Source: Desulfocapsa sp. (GTDB lineage: Bacteria > Desulfobacterota > Desulfobulbia > Desulfobulbales > Desulfocapsaceae). Taken from it: a stretch of 64,000 nucleotides of DNA. Below, piece by piece: positions 24,727 to 58,421 of the stretch (positions are counted from its first letter, which is position 1; each line of letters begins with the position of its first letter). The notes beneath the pieces are model-generated. The model had not been told where the DNA came from and ran no database searches. It worked only from the letters and a program-made list of their open reading frames with translations. The stretch lies in contig VMSP01000170.1 in NCBI GenBank assembly GCA_013792135.1, positions 1 to 64,000 on the forward strand. The letters run 5' to 3'. A program made the position numbers and the translations under genes.

Positions 24727-24868
24727 GAGGAACGTGCTCCTGGCTGCATGTTGAAGGTACCCGAAAAGAGGATGAATACCATTTGACATCGTTTGAACAG
24801 CAGGATACACCACAAGAAAGGAATTATTCAACATCCGTTTGTTTCATGATCTTTCATCTCAGGTAACT

Positions 24869-25825
24869 ATGCCTCTTCCTTCATTGCTCACACTCATCAA
24901 CGATTCCCGTTTTCTGGATCACGATACGGGTGGTGATCACCCCGAGATCCCGGCCCGGATTCAGTCTATTCTTGCGACCCTTGAGCAGAGTGATTGTTTT
25001 GCTCTTCTGGAACAGTTTGGGAGCCGTCCGGCAGAAAGACAATGGCTGATGGCGGCTCATGACGAGGGGTGGCTCTTTCGTTTTGAAGAGGCGGTCCTTT
25101 CGGGCAAGACCTTTATTGATCATCCTGATAACCAGATCGGTTATGATTCCTATGATGTGGCAACTCTAGCGGCTGGCGCCGGGCTTACCGCCATTGATCT
25201 GCTCGAACAGCAGCAGGCGCAACAGTGTTTTGCTCTGGTGCGTCCCCCAGGGCATCATGCCGAACGGATCAGACCTTTTGGCTTCTGTTTTTTTAATAAC
25301 TGTGTGGTGGCGGCGCGCTACTGGCAGCAGCACTATGGTCGCAAGCGTGTAGTTGTTTTTGATTTTGATGCCCATCATGGCAACGGGATTCAGTCGGCCT
25401 TTGAACGGGAGGAGGATTCCTTGTATATCAGCATTCATGAACATCCCAGTTTTAGCTACCCTGGAACAGGCTATGCGGATGAAAAAGGGTTTGCTGCTGG
25501 TCGCGGTTCCATTCTTAACCTGCCGCTCTCTCCTGGTGCGGGCGATGCCCAAATTCTGGCGTTGCTTCCGGCGGTGGAAGAAAAGATTGCTCAGTGGCAG
25601 CCGGATGCCATGATTGTAGCGGCCGGATTTGACGGCCATCGAGCCGATGAGATGTCGGGCCTGCTGTACTCGACAGGGATGTTTGAAAAGATAGGAGAGA
25701 GTGTCCGCAGCTGGAGCAATCTTTACTGCCATGGAAGATTGCTTTCCATCCTTGAGGGTGGCTATGAGATGACGGTGCTGGGAGAGTCGGTTGAGGCGTA
25801 TGTGCAGGGACTATTGGCCCGGTGA
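24869..25825 (+). CDS. Histone deacetylase-family (AcuC-like) deacetylase
   Basis: A zinc-dependent deacetylase of the arginase/HDAC superfamily, 318 residues. The N terminus shows FLDHDTGGDHPEIPARI. The active site shows RPPGHHAERIRPFGFCFFNN near residue 125 (the His-His pair) and the zinc ligands in DFDAHHGNG near residue 166. AAGFDGHRADE near residue 252 supplies a further Asp. Bacterial relatives remove acetyl groups from proteins (AcuC on acetyl-CoA synthetase), polyamines or acetoin-pathway targets. The genes after it (AcuB-like, ADP-forming acyl-CoA synthetase, CoA hydrolase-GNAT) favour the AcuC-like role, by inference. Confidence 0.85.
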   Translation: MPLPSLLTLINDSRFLDHDTGGDHPEIPARIQSILATLEQSDCFALLEQFGSRPAERQWLMAAHDEGWLFRFEEAVLSGKTFIDHPDNQIGYDSYDVATLAAGAGLTAIDLLEQQQAQQCFALVRPPGHHAERIRPFGFCFFNNCVVAARYWQQHYGRKRVVVFDFDAHHGNGIQSAFEREEDSLYISIHEHPSFSYPGTGYADEKGFAAGRGSILNLPLSPGAGDAQILALLPAVEEKIAQWQPDAMIVAAGFDGHRADEMSGLLYSTGMFEKIGESVRSWSNLYCHGRLLSILEGGYEMTVLGESVEAYVQGLLAR

Positions 25826-25891
25826 TTTTTCATTGAATCAGATAAAATCCCGATAAAATTATTGAACTCTAACTTTTTCTGAATTGATGCC

Positions 25892-26527
25892 ATGTATATT
25901 TCCAGATATATGATCCGAGAACCGTTGACGGCAACGCCTGACATGTCGCTTCCTGAGGCCAGACGTTTATTGAATGAAAATCATTTCCGTCATCTGCCGG
26001 TAGTGGATGAGCAGGGACAATTGGTGGGGATGATTACCGACCGTGACCTGCGTTCGGCTTATCCTTCATCAATGCTTTCTGAAAGTGAACGTCTGCAGGT
26101 TTATGAACGGGTGGAGAAAACGATGGTGGTGGATATCATGAGCACCGAGTGTCTTTCCCTGACCCCCGAATCGACCCTTGATGATGCCCTGCTCCTTTTT
26201 GATCGCGAGGGTGTGGGAGCATTGCCGGTCCTTGAAGATGGCCAGTTGGTTGGCATTTTTTCCAGCAGGGATCTGCTTACCGCCTATAAGGAGCTTTTCG
26301 GGGTTGGCGAGATAGGATCGGTACTGCTTGGTATTGATGACGACGGCCAGAGCGGCCTTATGACCCGGATAGTCACCTTGCTTGAACTTCATAATATCCC
26401 TTTTACCCGTCTGTTGCGCATTCACGATACTGAGCATGGTAACCGGATCTATCTCCGTTTAAACACCTGCAAGATTGCTTCAGTAATAGTTTTGCTGCGG
26501 GAGGCTGGAATTCATCCGGCCTTGTGA
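25892..26527 (+). CDS. CBS-CBS-ACT protein, AcuB-like
   Basis: A 211-residue cytoplasmic protein with two CBS domains (about residues 1-60 and 75-135; HFRHLPVVDEQGQLVGMITD and GVGALPVLEDGQLVGIFSSR) and a C-terminal ACT-like part. This matches AcuB of the Bacillus acuABC operon, thought to bind adenine nucleotides. It starts 66 bp after the HDAC-family gene and precedes the ADP-forming acyl-CoA synthetase, so it may sense energy charge for that set. The architecture is clear; the function is inferred. Confidence 0.8.
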   Translation: MYISRYMIREPLTATPDMSLPEARRLLNENHFRHLPVVDEQGQLVGMITDRDLRSAYPSSMLSESERLQVYERVEKTMVVDIMSTECLSLTPESTLDDALLLFDREGVGALPVLEDGQLVGIFSSRDLLTAYKELFGVGEIGSVLLGIDDDGQSGLMTRIVTLLELHNIPFTRLLRIHDTEHGNRIYLRLNTCKIASVIVLLREAGIHPAL

Positions 26528-26681
26528 TGGGGTTTGTCGATAGCTGCAGTCTGAAAACCTTTGTGCCCTCATTTTTGGAGTACAGGAGTTATTTCGCGCA
26601 GAGGCGCTGTGAAAAGACTGTCTTAAATTGACTGATTATGTGTTGAATATATTGTGAATAATAACTTTTTTAGGAGCTGAT

Positions 26682-28805
26682 ATGAGTCTTGATTCCCTTT
26701 TTTGCCCTGAATCGGTGGCAGTGATTGGCGCCTCCAGAACCCCGGGTAAGGTTGGTCATGATATTCTGGAAAATCTGGTACAGGACGGGTTCCCCGGGGT
26801 TATTGTTCCGGTGAATCCGGCAGTTGATACCCTGTTTGATCTGCCTTGTTATCCCTCCCTTACAGCTTGGGGTAAAGAGATTGATCTGACCGTGATTGTG
26901 GTGCCGCAGGCCAAGGTTATGGCGGCGATAGAAGATAGTATCAAGGCTAAAACCAAGGCCATCATTGTTATTACTGCCGGATTTCGGGAGACCGGACCGG
27001 AAGGGCTGGTCCATGAACAAAAGATAGCTGCACTCTGTCAGCGGCACAATGTTCGGGTGTTGGGGCCAAACTGTCTGGGACTGATCAATACGGAGGCCAG
27101 GCTCAATGCCTCCTTTGCCGGCCGGATGCCGAAACCCGGTGGAATCTCAGTTTTTTCCCAATCAGGGGCTTTGTGTACCGCCATGCTTGATCTGGCTGCG
27201 GGCAGACATTTGGGACTGGCCAAACTGATCAGTATCGGCAACAAGGCGGATATCTCTGAGGTTGACCTGCTCTCATATCTTGCCCATGATGAGCAGACCA
27301 AGGTGATTGTTGGTTATCTTGAAGATATTGCCACCGGCAATAATTTTGTCAAGGCGGCGGAAGAGGCCGCTACCCGGAAACCGGTGATTATCCTGAAATC
27401 AGGAACAACAGCTGCCGGTCTGAAGGCAGCTGCGTCGCATACAGGAGTTCTGGCCGGTGTTGATACCGCCTACGGTGCGGCCTTCAAACGCTCAGGTGTG
27501 GTGCGGGCCGATACCTTTGATGCTCTTTTTGATTATGCCACGGCCCTCTCCATGCAGCCGTTGCCCAAGGGAAACCGGATTCTTATCATCACCAATGCCG
27601 GCGGGCCTGGAACCATGGCTGCCGACGCGGTGGAAAAGGCCGGGATGGAGGTGGCGGAACTAGACCGCAATACGGCCACTGCGCTTCGGGCGCAACTGCC
27701 CCTGGCGGCAAGCGTCGGCAACCCGATTGACGTGCTGGGCGATGCTGATCCCAAGCGCTATGTGGCGGCCATCGAGGCGGCTCAGACCGATCCGTCCGTT
27801 GATGCTATCCTCGTAATCCTCACTCCTCAGGCCATGACCAGGCCTGCAGAAACGGCCATTGCCATTGCCCGGGCCTTGGACGGCTCCAAGCCGGTGGTGG
27901 CCTCGTTCATGGGGGGCAGGGACGTGATGCCGGGGCGTAAGGAACTCGCTGCTGCCGGACTTCCTGATTATGAATCGCCGGAACGGGCCGTCTCCGCCCT
28001 GAAGGGGATGGTGCAATACGCGGCCTGGAAACAGCGGCCGCCTCGTCTGGTGACCAGGTTCCGGGTGAATCGGAGGCGGGTGGAACGCATTATCAGTCGC
28101 CGTCAGCGCACCGGCATGCTCCAGTTGGGCGAGGTGAAAGGAAAAGATATCCTCGGGGCCTACGGGTTCCGGGTGCAGGATGGGGCTTTGGCCGGCAGCG
28201 CTGAGGAGGCCGTGGAAATTGCCGAGCGCATTGGTTATCCCGTGGCCATGAAGATCGTTTCTCCCAATATCGTCCATAAAAGTGATCTGGGCGGAGTGAT
28301 GCTCAATATGGCCAATGGTGAGGCAGTCAGCGATGCCTACGATCTGATGATGTTGAAGATCCGCAAGCGGGTGCCGGATGCTTTGATTGAAGGGATTTAT
28401 GTGGAACAGATGGCCAAGAAGGGCTTGGAGGTTATCATCGGCATGACTCGTGATCCCCAGTTCGGGCCTATGCTCATGTTTGGTTTGGGCGGTATTTTTG
28501 TTGAGGTGATGAAGGATGTAACCTTCCATCTGGCCCCGATCACTGAAGAGGAGGCCATCCAGATGCTGAAGGCCACCCGCTCTTATGCCATGCTTGAAGG
28601 CAAGCGGGGCCAGAAAGGGGTAGATATTACGGCTATTGCTTCCGGCCTGCAGCGGATCAGCCAGTTGACCACTGATTTTCCGCAGATTCTGGAGCTTGAC
28701 ATCAATCCGTTTATTGTTGGAGAGTTTGGTACCGAACCGGTGGTGGCCGACGCGCGTATGACCCTGGCTCCGTTGCCAGAGGAGGGAGAAAAACATGGAA
28801 TATGA
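26682..28805 (+). CDS. ADP-forming acetyl/acyl-CoA synthetase (fused alpha-beta)
   Basis: A 707-residue enzyme that interconverts acyl-CoA, ADP and Pi with acid, ATP and CoA, conserving the thioester energy as ATP. Domains in order are CoA-binding (about 1-130), succinyl-CoA ligase-like (150-290), a second ligase domain (300-450) and ATP-grasp (480-700). The phospho-accepting His is His253 in ASHTGVLAG. The ATP-grasp shows GYPVAMKIVSPNIVHKSDLG near residue 518. It has no GNAT domain, unlike Pat-type acetyltransferases with the same core. A good AGGAG precedes the ATG. It overlaps the next gene by 11 bp. Confidence 0.9.
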   Translation: MSLDSLFCPESVAVIGASRTPGKVGHDILENLVQDGFPGVIVPVNPAVDTLFDLPCYPSLTAWGKEIDLTVIVVPQAKVMAAIEDSIKAKTKAIIVITAGFRETGPEGLVHEQKIAALCQRHNVRVLGPNCLGLINTEARLNASFAGRMPKPGGISVFSQSGALCTAMLDLAAGRHLGLAKLISIGNKADISEVDLLSYLAHDEQTKVIVGYLEDIATGNNFVKAAEEAATRKPVIILKSGTTAAGLKAAASHTGVLAGVDTAYGAAFKRSGVVRADTFDALFDYATALSMQPLPKGNRILIITNAGGPGTMAADAVEKAGMEVAELDRNTATALRAQLPLAASVGNPIDVLGDADPKRYVAAIEAAQTDPSVDAILVILTPQAMTRPAETAIAIARALDGSKPVVASFMGGRDVMPGRKELAAAGLPDYESPERAVSALKGMVQYAAWKQRPPRLVTRFRVNRRRVERIISRRQRTGMLQLGEVKGKDILGAYGFRVQDGALAGSAEEAVEIAERIGYPVAMKIVSPNIVHKSDLGGVMLNMANGEAVSDAYDLMMLKIRKRVPDALIEGIYVEQMAKKGLEVIIGMTRDPQFGPMLMFGLGGIFVEVMKDVTFHLAPITEEEAIQMLKATRSYAMLEGKRGQKGVDITAIASGLQRISQLTTDFPQILELDINPFIVGEFGTEPVVADARMTLAPLPEEGEKHGI

Positions 28806-30672
28806 TGTGAATTGGAAAGAGACCTACAAAGATATGATCATGACCCCGAAGAAGGCCATGGCCAATGTCCGCTCCGGCCATCGCGTCTTTCTGGGGACGG
28901 GCTGCGGTGAACCCACCGTGCTGGTACAGGCCATGACTGAGATGGCAGGCACTCTTTGCGATGTGGAGATTGTTGAGCTTTTGACCAAGGGCGATGCCCC
29001 TTATGCCGATCGGAAATATGCCGATTGCTTCAAGGTCAACTCCTTTTTTATCGGCCATAATGTCCGGGATGTGATTCAGGAGGGCCGGGGGGATTATACC
29101 CCTATCCTCATGTCGGACATCCCGGGTTTGTTGAACTCCGGACAGTTGCCCCTTGATGTGGCCTTGATCCAGGTGACTCCGCCGGATGCCCGCGGTAAGA
29201 TGAGCCTGGGGGTGTCTGTTGATATTGTCAAGGCAGCTGCCGAGAACGCCTCGCTGGTGATTGCCCAGGTCAACCCGCAGATGCCATGGACGCGAGGTGA
29301 CAGCCTGATTGATGTCGCTGATCTGGATATCCTGGTGCCGGCCGACGTGCCCCTCTTGGAGCGCGAATCGAAACCGGTACATAAGGTGAGCGCCCGGATT
29401 GCCGAACTGGTGGCTGCCTTGATCCCGAACGGCGCCACGGTTGAGTTTGGACTGGGCCGGGTTCCCGGGGTCGGCCGGGTTCCGCAGGCGGTAATGCACG
29501 CCCTGTACGACAAGCATGATCTGGGCATCCACACCGAACTGATTACCGATGAAATCCTTGACCTGATTGAGTCGGGGGCGGTGAGCGGGGCGCGCAAATC
29601 CACGGATCGGGGTAAAATCGTCACCAGTTTCTGCATGGGAACCAAGAAGCTTTACGATTTTATCAATGATAATCCCCTGTTTTCATTCCGGCCAACCGAT
29701 TATGTCAATGACTCCACAGTGATTGGTAAACAGAACCAGATGGTTGCCATCAATATGGCACTCGAAATTGATCTCACCGGCCAGATCTGCTCTGATTCCG
29801 AAGAGGGAGTTTTCTATTCCGGGATCGGCGGCCAGGTCGATTTTAATCGCGGGGCGGCCAGATCGCCTGGCGGCCGGGCGATTATTGTCATGCCGGCCAC
29901 CACCAAAGACGGCAAATCCCGTATTGTGGCCGCTCTGAGCAGCGGCTCCGGGGTGGTGATCACCCGGGGTACGGTTCACTATGTGGTCACCGAATACGGG
30001 GTGGCCTATCTGCATGGAAAATCGGTACAGGATCGCACCCTGGCGCTGGTCTCCATTGCCCATCCTGATCATCGGGAGTCGCTTTTGAAACAGGCCATTG
30101 AGGCTCGGTATCTGCGGCGGGAATTTGCCGATGTGGAAGGGAAATTTGTGGTCGCCTCCCTGGATTTGATGAAGACCAGCTCCCTGCTTGAAAATGGTAC
30201 CCAGGTTAATTTTCGGCCCGTTCATCCCACCGATGAGCCGCTGATGCGGGATCTGCTTTATGATCTCTCCAAGGAGACCCTTTATTATCGGTTCATGAGT
30301 CATAACCAGCGATTCGGCCAGAAACAGATCCAGAATTTTGTCTATGTCGATCACCGCAAGGATGTGGCCATTGTCGGCACTCTGCCTGAAGCCTATGGTG
30401 AAGATATCATAGCTGTTGGCCGTTATTATCTGGATGAGCGCACCAATATGGCCGAGGTGGCCTTTATTGTCCGGGATGAGTGGCAGAACAAGGGGCTGGG
30501 CAGCTTTCTCTTCCGCCATCTGATGACCATTGCCACGGCTAGTGGTATCAGCGGATTTACGGCCGAGGTCCTGCGTGATAACAAGCGGATGCAGGCGATC
30601 TTCAACCATTCCGGGTACAAGGTCCAGAGCCGGGTGGAAGAAGGCGTGTGCAGTTTTAAGATTGAATTTTAG
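28795..30672 (+). CDS. Acetyl-CoA hydrolase/CoA-transferase fused to GNAT acetyltransferase
   Basis: A 625-residue two-part protein. Residues 1 to about 450 are an acetyl-CoA hydrolase/transferase of the Cat1 family, with GIGGQVDFNRG near residue 343 and VTEYGVAYLHGKS near 398. From about residue 465 there is a GNAT domain, whose acetyl-CoA loop reads QNKGLGS (564-570). The fused form is known from other anaerobes, but its substrates are not established. It overlaps the ADP-forming synthetase and completes the module that begins with the HDAC-family and AcuB-like genes. Likely roles are acetate/acetyl-CoA exchange plus protein acetylation, by inference. Confidence 0.88.
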   Translation: MEYDVNWKETYKDMIMTPKKAMANVRSGHRVFLGTGCGEPTVLVQAMTEMAGTLCDVEIVELLTKGDAPYADRKYADCFKVNSFFIGHNVRDVIQEGRGDYTPILMSDIPGLLNSGQLPLDVALIQVTPPDARGKMSLGVSVDIVKAAAENASLVIAQVNPQMPWTRGDSLIDVADLDILVPADVPLLERESKPVHKVSARIAELVAALIPNGATVEFGLGRVPGVGRVPQAVMHALYDKHDLGIHTELITDEILDLIESGAVSGARKSTDRGKIVTSFCMGTKKLYDFINDNPLFSFRPTDYVNDSTVIGKQNQMVAINMALEIDLTGQICSDSEEGVFYSGIGGQVDFNRGAARSPGGRAIIVMPATTKDGKSRIVAALSSGSGVVITRGTVHYVVTEYGVAYLHGKSVQDRTLALVSIAHPDHRESLLKQAIEARYLRREFADVEGKFVVASLDLMKTSSLLENGTQVNFRPVHPTDEPLMRDLLYDLSKETLYYRFMSHNQRFGQKQIQNFVYVDHRKDVAIVGTLPEAYGEDIIAVGRYYLDERTNMAEVAFIVRDEWQNKGLGSFLFRHLMTIATASGISGFTAEVLRDNKRMQAIFNHSGYKVQSRVEEGVCSFKIEF

Positions 30673-31062: not shown

Positions 31063-31737
31063 ATGAAGAAGGAACAACAATCAGCCTGCTTACGCTGCGG
31101 CGTATGCTGTCAGAAAGGTGGCCCGGCTCTGCATGGTCAGGATCTGGCTTTGGTGAGCGGCGGATACTTGCCCATGGAAGATCTGATTACTATCCGGCGC
31201 GGGGAGTTGGCTTATAATCCTCTTTCCGGCACAATTGAACCGGTGCTTTCGGAGTTGGTAAAGATCCGGGGCACCAGTCAGGAGTGGTGCTGCTGTTATT
31301 ATGAGCCGGCGAGCAAGGGTTGTTCCATTTATGGGAATCGGCCCTTGGCCTGCGGGGTATTGAAGTGCTGGCAGCCTGAGGAAACACTTGCCCTCGTTGG
31401 TAAGGATCTGCTCAGCCGCTTGGATATCCTGGATGATGATGACCCACTCCGGCCATTGGTGTTGGAGCATGAGCGATTGTGTCCCTGTCCTGATATGCGG
31501 GATGTTGAGAAAACACTGAGCGAACAGGCAGACAATATCTTGCAGTCACTCGAGGATAAGGTCAATACCGATCTCGCTTTTCGGGACAGGGTGGTGAAAA
31601 AATTTAACCCGCCTCTGTCCCTCGAGTTATTTCTCTTTGGTCGGCCACTTTTTCAACTGCTGCAAGCTTTTGGGGTAGCTGTTTCTGAATCTCCCCAAGG
31701 GCTGAAGTTGATAATGAGAAGAAAATTTATTAGATAA
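31063..31737 (+). CDS. YkgJ-type cysteine-cluster protein
   Basis: A 224-residue soluble protein. The first part has the metal or Fe-S-binding cysteine pattern of the YkgJ family: CLRCGVCCQKGG at residues 9-20, then CCCYYEPASKGCSIY near residue 84 and RPLACGVLKCW near 98. The C-terminal half is mostly helical with no motif I know. Family function is not settled. It stands alone, 45 bp before a hybrid kinase gene on the same strand, and may share its transcript. Confidence 0.8.
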   Translation: MKKEQQSACLRCGVCCQKGGPALHGQDLALVSGGYLPMEDLITIRRGELAYNPLSGTIEPVLSELVKIRGTSQEWCCCYYEPASKGCSIYGNRPLACGVLKCWQPEETLALVGKDLLSRLDILDDDDPLRPLVLEHERLCPCPDMRDVEKTLSEQADNILQSLEDKVNTDLAFRDRVVKKFNPPLSLELFLFGRPLFQLLQAFGVAVSESPQGLKLIMRRKFIR

Positions 31738-58044: not shown

Positions 58045-58188
58045 GTATATTGGCAGGGGCGTCCTCCTCTTCGCTCATGATTTTGCCAAGATGAGATGAT
58101 AAGGGAATACTGATCATGAGAGTGATGATGAGAGGCTGTTTTTGTCGTTGACTTGTGCTGGCTTTTTCAGTAATTCTTGTTAAGAAAA

Positions 58189-58360
58189 TTTCAGATGCTC
58201 ATAACAGAGCTTAAAAGGGAACCCGGTGACAATCCGGGACGGGCCCGCCGCTGTGACCGGGGACGACCGTTGCATTCAAGCCACTGACCGTATTTAATTT
58301 TTTTTGGTTGGGAAGGCGCAACAGGGAGGACGATCCGGGAGTCAGAAGACCTGTCTGAAA
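58189..58360 (+). ncRNA. Cobalamin (B12) riboswitch
   Basis: The AdoCbl-type aptamer shows its conserved blocks: AAAAGGGAA near 58213, CGGTGACAATCCGGG, ACGGGCCCGCCGCTGTGA, GCCACTG near 58279, GGGAAGGCGC and AGTCAGAAGACCTG near 58340. P1 is TTTCAGA (58189-58195) with TCTGAAA (58354-58360). A terminator follows, so bound cobalamin should shut off the TonB receptor downstream. Confidence 0.93.
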
Positions 58361-58421
58361 TCAAGAAGGATGTCTCCGAGGACAAGGGGCATACCTGTGT
58401 CATCTGTGGATAAAACAAGGC

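Follow-up and report, generated by a model that had tools for sequence, protein, structure and literature searches.

Which enzyme would be the target of the acetyltransferase-like and deacetylase-like proteins that are encoded side by side in a 64,000-nucleotide stretch of contig VMSP01000170.1 from Desulfocapsa sp. (assembly GCA_013792135.1; the whole stretch is hereafter called the window)? Four consecutive genes, all on the + strand, encode an HDAC-family deacetylase, a CBS-CBS-ACT protein, an ADP-forming acyl-coenzyme A (CoA) synthetase, here called D, and a CoA-transferase fused to a GNAT domain, here called T. A first-pass annotation of this DNA had reported these four same-strand families, and they were confirmed, the last two genes overlapping by 11 bases. 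Judging from the sequences, the four genes probably constitute (at a rough probability of 0.58) a single reversible lysine-acylation control module around the synthetase D. The features of the locus are:

24839–25825, + strand: HDAC-family deacetylase gene, from a TTG start, with an in-frame ATG at 24869 (318 or 328 amino acids)
25892–26527, + strand: AcuB-like CBS-CBS-ACT protein, 211 amino acids, matching an AcuB structure
26682–28805, + strand: D, ADP-forming short-chain acyl-CoA synthetase, 707 amino acids, assigned from Pfam and its nearest structure, 8wzu
28795–30672, + strand: T, whole fusion gene, encoding a CoA-transferase followed by a GNAT domain at the C terminus
28795–30114, + strand: T residues 1–440, CoA-transferase domain of the 4-hydroxybutyrate / butyryl-CoA:acetate type, assigned from Pfam and from sequence and fold matches
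30181–30672, + strand: T residues 463–625, Pat-type GNAT domain, matching 9isq and 4ava
28795–28805, + strand: overlap of the end of D with the start of T, 11 bases, from the gene coordinates
31063–31737, + strand: CxxCxxCC-domain protein (PF03692, from Pfam), a possible extra member, 3' of T

The most novel part of the locus is the CoA-transferase–GNAT fusion. T matches the Pfam families AcetylCoA_hyd_C (E 2.3e-61), AcetylCoA_hydro (E 3.9e-30) and Acetyltransf_1 (E 1.1e-7). From about residue 1 to 440 it resembles 4-hydroxybutyrate CoA-transferases (3gk7, 2oas) in sequence, active-site motifs and fold (3gk7, fold match E 2.1e-52; the model of T has a predicted local distance difference test score, pLDDT, of 79.5 and a predicted template modelling score, pTM, of 0.70) but, unlike these enzymes, it carries an added GNAT domain. 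The latter matches 9isq ('Protein acetyltransferase', E 1.5e-18) and 4ava ('Lysine acetyltransferase', E 2.2e-15), which we take to be PatZ and MtPat, respectively, and the model NF058543 (acetyltransferase Pat) recognizes T with E 3e-26, at only 92 bits against a cut-off of 460. Two presumably catalytic residues are conserved among 172 relatives: Glu248 of the CoA-transferase domain in 157 and Glu554 of the GNAT domain in 163, with Asp in the remaining nine. By these likenesses, the GNAT of T is of the Pat type and is fused to a CoA-transferase; the NCBI product names include that of a 'bifunctional acetyl-CoA hydrolase/transferase and GNAT' protein. In 15 distant T relatives (L034–L037, L180, L184, L190, L193, L204, L205, L207–L211) Glu248 is replaced by Gln, Asp or Arg; going by this substitution, they may have lost the transferase activity and kept a sensor domain. 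Two further ideas about T were rejected: the six-residue insert of RVPGVG type is not a companion of D, being absent from the D-linked T of locus L131, and spread on plasmids was discarded after none of 310 matching plasmid records reached 80% query coverage at one place.

In one review, five types of GNAT are distinguished and CoA-transferase–GNAT fusions are not among them; among the papers listed in searches of the open-access PMC literature none dealt with such a fusion or operon, which is no proof of absence. With Type I/II GNATs (PatZ, SlPatA) T shares a homologous GNAT domain and the involvement of an NDP-forming acyl-CoA synthetase. However, the synthetase domain of Type I/II enzymes is fused and is described as inactive (PMC8556138), whereas the synthetase of the window is a separate protein with a catalytic-type His and the fused partner in T is a CoA-transferase. 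As in Type III GNATs (MtPat, ACT-GNAT), the GNAT domain of T is C-terminal and stands behind a metabolite-binding domain, although here the domain in front is a complete CoA-transferase that in most relatives (157/172) retains the glutamate of its active site.

The synthetase D matches ATP-grasp_5 (E 2.7e-81), Succ_CoA_lig (E 2.5e-52) and CoA_binding_2 (E 1.2e-22). Its nearest solved relative is the 4-hydroxybutyrate--CoA ligase (ADP-forming) 8wzu, which has the same domain order and matches residues 5–693 with 558.6 bits (E 1.9e-166), as against 347.9 bits for full-length protein acetyltransferase chains. Unlike 8wzu, D is linked to T and lies below the cut-off of the NCBIfam model for 4-hydroxybutyrate ligase (642 and 1300 bits, respectively); it comes close to the threshold of TIGR02717 (565.6 bits, cut-off 567.15), and none of the four proteins gave an NCBIfam match above any model's cut-off. 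In the SHTG motif of D, His253, which we take to be the catalytic residue, is kept in all 102 aligned relatives (120 sequences before the removal of identical, X-rich and odd-length ones). On this evidence, D appears to be an ADP-forming short-chain acyl-CoA synthetase and a candidate acetylation target, with acetate as an unproven substrate.

The deacetylase (PF00850, E 1.1e-82), for which ATG 24869, the start used in the first-pass annotation, is likelier than TTG 24839, has HDAC6 and HdaH as its best solved relatives, and no class I enzyme is found among the best 60 of its 137 solved-structure matches. It contains the motifs RPPGHH and EGGY, which PMC11532494 gives as motifs of robust deacetylases, assigning class II enzymes to cluster 1 and AcuC to cluster 2. 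By its sequence relatives, the window deacetylase is class II-like and not AcuC-class, Bacillus AcuC lying outside the comparison. The same genome has two further HDAC genes, and a sirtuin search gave no match in it at E 0.001, compared with a match in 10 of 14 control genomes. Elsewhere in this genome (contig C39, L065:5701–7754), another HDAC gene overlaps a small GNAT-like gene that is followed, as judged by eye, by a short CxxCxxCC-like protein.

In the CBS-CBS-ACT protein, Pfam recognized two CBS stretches (E 3e-34) and gave no match for the ACT domain. The structure of Geobacillus AcuB, 9s4w, matches its residues 12–208 (E 2.7e-21), and in its AlphaFold model (mean pLDDT 86.3, pTM 0.65) the ACT domain has the order strand-helix-strand-strand-helix, which is also reported for Bacillus AcuB in PMC13121692. 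The 18 best Foldseek matches of this model are all AcuB chains, with the domains shifted (template modelling scores, TM, of 0.57–0.64 and root-mean-square deviations of 7.4–9.5). Residues R33, H34 and R51 do not vary among the aligned relatives (20 of 20) and bear the same numbers as Arg33, His34 and Arg51 of Bacillus AcuB; according to PMC13039410 and PMC13121692, these three either contact adenine nucleotides or diadenosine tetraphosphate (Ap4A) or are positioned by them. The same two papers (both 2026) describe AcuB as a deacetylase inhibitor and disagree about the stronger signal, AMP or Ap4A. Judging from sequence and model, the CBS-CBS-ACT protein is an AcuB homologue and a putative adenine-nucleotide-sensing inhibitor of the deacetylase.

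The locus therefore shares with Bacillus acuABC-acsA a GNAT, a CBS-CBS-ACT adaptor with R33, H34 and R51, and an HDAC-family deacetylase, their genes accompanying or adjoining one for an acyl-CoA synthetase. It differs in having a Pat-type GNAT joined to a CoA-transferase, a class II-like HDAC, an ADP-forming synthetase and a changed AcuC-contact residue. In other words, the locus has the AcuB-type adaptor but not the class I deacetylase, the single-domain GNAT of AcuA type or the AMP-forming neighbour. The first-pass annotation had seen here a rearranged acuABC module with AcuB-like and AcuC-like partners. The AcuB-like partner was borne out by the structure and fold matches and by the three invariant residues; the AcuC-like partner was not, as the solved relatives of the deacetylase belong to class II, so that its assignment to the AcuC class was rejected. 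The fusion of the GNAT to a CoA-transferase also held, but an AcuA-type GNAT did not, the domain resembling Pat in a comparison that included no AcuA sequence.

This gene order recurs within the genus and also in further genera of the family and further families of the order. Among 38 genomes, comprising its own and those of relatives, T found a match at E 0.001 in 34: 30 of these are full-length at at least 63% identity, two have 36–42% identity and two are partial only. One genome of the same genus (G005, 96% complete) had only partial matches, without a full-length fusion. Across the phylum, T matched at E 1e-100 in 132 of 296 genomes (97 of 199 genera); at E 1e-150 it matched in 16 of 235 genomes in the phylum of L131, 12 of 296 in that of L133 and 30 of 294 in that of L135. 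In 76 of 77 named loci, some of them cut by contig ends, the gene immediately upstream of T is D, in the same orientation (the exception being L142); this set was retrieved with the window's own T as the query and is therefore biased towards its kin. These records come from Desulfobulbaceae/Deltaproteobacteria, Actinobacteria and Planctomycetes, and the D-T spacing is either the same as in the window (aligned ends −7) or a small gap. Where at least 4.8 kb of upstream sequence is present (62 named loci), an HDAC gene adjoins D-T in 38 (37 upstream, and L131 downstream), an AcuB-like gene is found in 39 and both are found in 37. Desulfofustis glycolicus DSM 9705 is one organism with all four genes at a single locus (L096). 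The association of the CoA-transferase–GNAT, the ADP-forming synthetase, the deacetylase and the AcuB homologue thus extends far beyond this genome, the lack of which had been named at the outset as grounds for giving up the proposal. With a class II-like HDAC, a fused Pat-like GNAT, an ADP-forming synthetase and an old, widespread gene order, a local rearrangement of acuABC was rejected. Also rejected was D as the neighbour of all T relatives, since those below 50% identity are mostly without it.

A tree was built with FastTree from 103 T sequences, left from 190 after the removal of identical, X-rich and odd-length ones (172) and of those more than 82% alike; 43 of its 100 inner branches were starred. 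A single clade of 49 rows with local support of 99 holds all D-linked rows (46 of the 49); of the other three, L285 and L303 are truncated at a contig end and L307 is a true exception. A same-strand HDAC gene lies within 4.6 kb of T in 14 of these 49 rows (10 class II-like, four class I-like) versus one of the 54 rows outside (L273), with a Fisher p of 9e-5 that overstates the evidence because the tree rows are related. The number of changes needed on the tree was four for the D linkage and three for the linkage to AMP-forming acetyl-CoA synthetase (Acs).

The D-T pair occurs with two versions of the deacetylase: a class II HDAC with an AcuB-like protein, as in the window, and, only in lineages other than that of the window, a class I (AcuC-class) enzyme without an adjacent AcuB, as in L131 and in the phylum of a Phycisphaerales genome. 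In L131 the HDAC gene follows D-T by about a dozen bases, and the best solved relatives of its product are HDAC2, clr6, HDAC3, RPD3 and HDAC1, all of class I. HDACs whose better match is that of L131 and not that of the window adjoin D-T in L283, L284, L287 and L288 (38–46% identity), and in L273 another such HDAC adjoins T near a contig end; the class I assignment comes from structure comparison for L131 and from likeness to it for the other loci. Counting near-duplicate loci, 59 HDACs near T best match that of the window, all with RPP, and six best match that of L131, none with RPP; in three of the six, the C-terminal GGY motif was read by eye. Since both HDAC classes are old, an HDAC was joined to D-T at least twice. 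An AcuB-like search at E 1e-15 found no match in the genomes of L131 and L135. D-T was found without an HDAC in the available stretch in L127, L129, L133 and L136 (Actinomycetota/Actinobacteria), L135 (Phycisphaerales) and L139 (Planctomycetota). HDAC and AcuB-like genes also go together away from D-T: we searched 14 loci in 12 genomes without a class II HDAC-AcuB pair beside D-T (L131 having a class I HDAC instead), and 10 of the 12 genomes had an AcuB-like gene, with an HDAC gene directly before it in eight (39–61% identity to that of the window).

What the sequences show directly is how the genes are ordered, which domains their products contain, that active-site-type residues are conserved and that HDACs of two classes are linked to D-T. 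An acetyltransferase-bearing protein that is linked to a CoA-activating enzyme and to deacetylases of two different classes is most readily accounted for if lysines of D (or T) are reversibly acetylated. The HDAC-AcuB pairs kept elsewhere, the lack of a sirtuin match in the window genome, the AMP-forming synthetases beside some T relatives outside the clade and the unvarying AcuB ligand residues also count in favour of this reading. We infer the acetylation, its target and its effect from this pattern, and take the direction of the nucleotide control from Bacillus AcuB. The two halves of T would draw on one acyl-CoA pool, the CoA-transferase half moving CoA between acids without ATP. When acyl-CoA is plentiful, the GNAT half would transfer acetyl groups from acetyl-CoA to D, and perhaps to T as well, and so shut down the route that costs ATP. 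The HDAC-family enzyme would strip the acetyl group and restore D, while the AcuB-like protein would sense adenine nucleotides (AMP or Ap4A) by its CBS pair and block the deacetylase by its ACT domain, so that at low energy the deacetylase would be inhibited and D would stay off. The mechanism put forward in the first-pass annotation is plausible and better supported than before; its four-family association was retained, its AcuC-class deacetylase and acuABC rearrangement were not, and the acetate that it named is only a possible substrate, the nearest solved relatives acting on 4-hydroxybutyrate.

Several observations weigh against this module. The HDAC linkage requires 12 changes on the tree, and an HDAC gene is absent beside D-T in 24 of the 62 named loci; T relatives below 50% identity mostly have no partner gene at all. 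HDAC genes were found in 15 of 15 genomes (14 with D-T, plus that of L142), yet also in 9 of 14 control genomes, so that their mere presence says little. The partner deacetylase is not of the class of AcuC, and the genome of the window also encodes a PatZ-like protein and a canonical Acs. In the AcuB homologue, Lys120, a ligand in BsAcuB, is aligned to Ser125, and Met188/189, through which AcuB contacts AcuC according to PMC13121692, is aligned to Cys193 here and to Tyr or Phe in most relatives. Finally, K23, K233, K403, K524 and K533 of D are invariant and K188, K239 and K488 nearly so, but no acetylation site is singled out, because the invariant lysines sit in motifs taken as catalytic, ligand or structural; the search for a specific target lysine ended without one.

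If D and T were a plain metabolic pair of CoA ligase and CoA-transferase, the GNAT and HDAC would act on another protein, above all on the lysine in the PKTRSGK motif of AMP-forming Acs. The Acs of this genome (1003 bits, above the cut-off) carries GLPKTRSGKIMRR, and Acs acetylation is known for Pat-type GNATs (PMC8556138). Within the tree, an AMP-forming synthetase stands beside T in four of the 54 rows outside the D-linked clade and in none of the 49 inside; among the loci, T relatives outside the clade have such a neighbour at 27–1031 bases in L191 and L316–L319, and most others have none. In two of the eight loci with a relocated HDAC-AcuB pair (G341 and G1170) the pair adjoins a divergent AMP-forming synthetase with PKTRSGKIMRR, which recalls the Bacillus arrangement as described in PMC13121692. 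Nevertheless, the near-constant neighbour of T in the clade of the window is D and not Acs, and the separate PatZ-like protein could serve Acs, so that we consider Acs an unlikely primary target. In L334, L335 and L337, by eye, relocated HDAC-AcuB pairs lie near genes for biotin-dependent acyl-CoA carboxylase/decarboxylase-like subunits, hinting at control of propionyl-CoA metabolism.

D and T might also be a split Pat, in which D, being homologous to the N-terminal PatZ domain, would be an acyl-CoA sensor steering the GNAT of T and not its substrate. The PatZ-like protein of the same genome shares 40% identity with D in its synthetase part, and the adjacency of D and T is near-constant, the genes sometimes overlapping. 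However, the higher score of D with the ligase 8wzu than with protein acetyltransferases and the unbroken conservation of His253 speak against this, and the CoA-binding domain already present in T could do the sensing, which makes a split Pat improbable. The PatZ-like protein itself (892 amino acids, contig C80, L214:10761–13439) retains the catalytic-position His of synthetases (THTA), although PMC8556138 describes the synthetase domains of Pat as inactive. Quite improbable is a detoxification or carbon-recovery operon whose GNAT and HDAC act on small molecules such as amines or polyamines: polyamine deacetylases do share the HDAC fold and occur among the matches of the window HDAC (HDAC10 chains, 3men), but the nearest solved relatives of the GNAT are labelled protein or lysine acetyltransferases and AcuB is known as a deacetylase inhibitor (PMC13039410, PMC13121692).

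Consensus scans of the window returned 10 promoter-like sites (5.9 in shuffles, standard deviation 2.2) and seven terminator-like ones (7.0 in shuffles), which do not settle the transcription units. A PF03692 CxxCxxCC protein is encoded within 2.5 kb downstream of T on the same strand in 26 of the 77 named loci, in 12 of them within 100 bases, and six of the 26 have no HDAC or AcuB gene upstream. FliB, the flagellin lysine methylase, carries a domain similar to CxxCxxCC. A cobalamin riboswitch is located at 58176–58372 of the window (Rfam RF00174, 114.2 bits).

Returning to the control module around D, we suggest tentatively, at somewhat short of even odds, that CoA-transferase–GNAT fusions add a sixth architecture to those of the bacterial protein acetyltransferases, with a catalytic CoA-transferase as the acyl-CoA sensor. 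In the D-linked clade they would acetylate and switch off an ADP-forming synthetase, forming an ancient circuit parallel to that of AMP-forming Acs, which two HDAC classes would have joined independently. Acetylation control is known for AMP-forming synthetases; the conserved partner here is an ADP-forming enzyme, closely connected with cellular energy balance, and the acetyltransferase shares a polypeptide with a CoA-transferase for the same kind of metabolite. The association further raises the possibility that class II HDAC-family enzymes, and not class I enzymes alone, are regulated by AcuB-type adaptors. As the gene set predicts an acetyltransferase, its substrate, an eraser and an energy sensor in one operon, a few purified proteins would suffice for a test.

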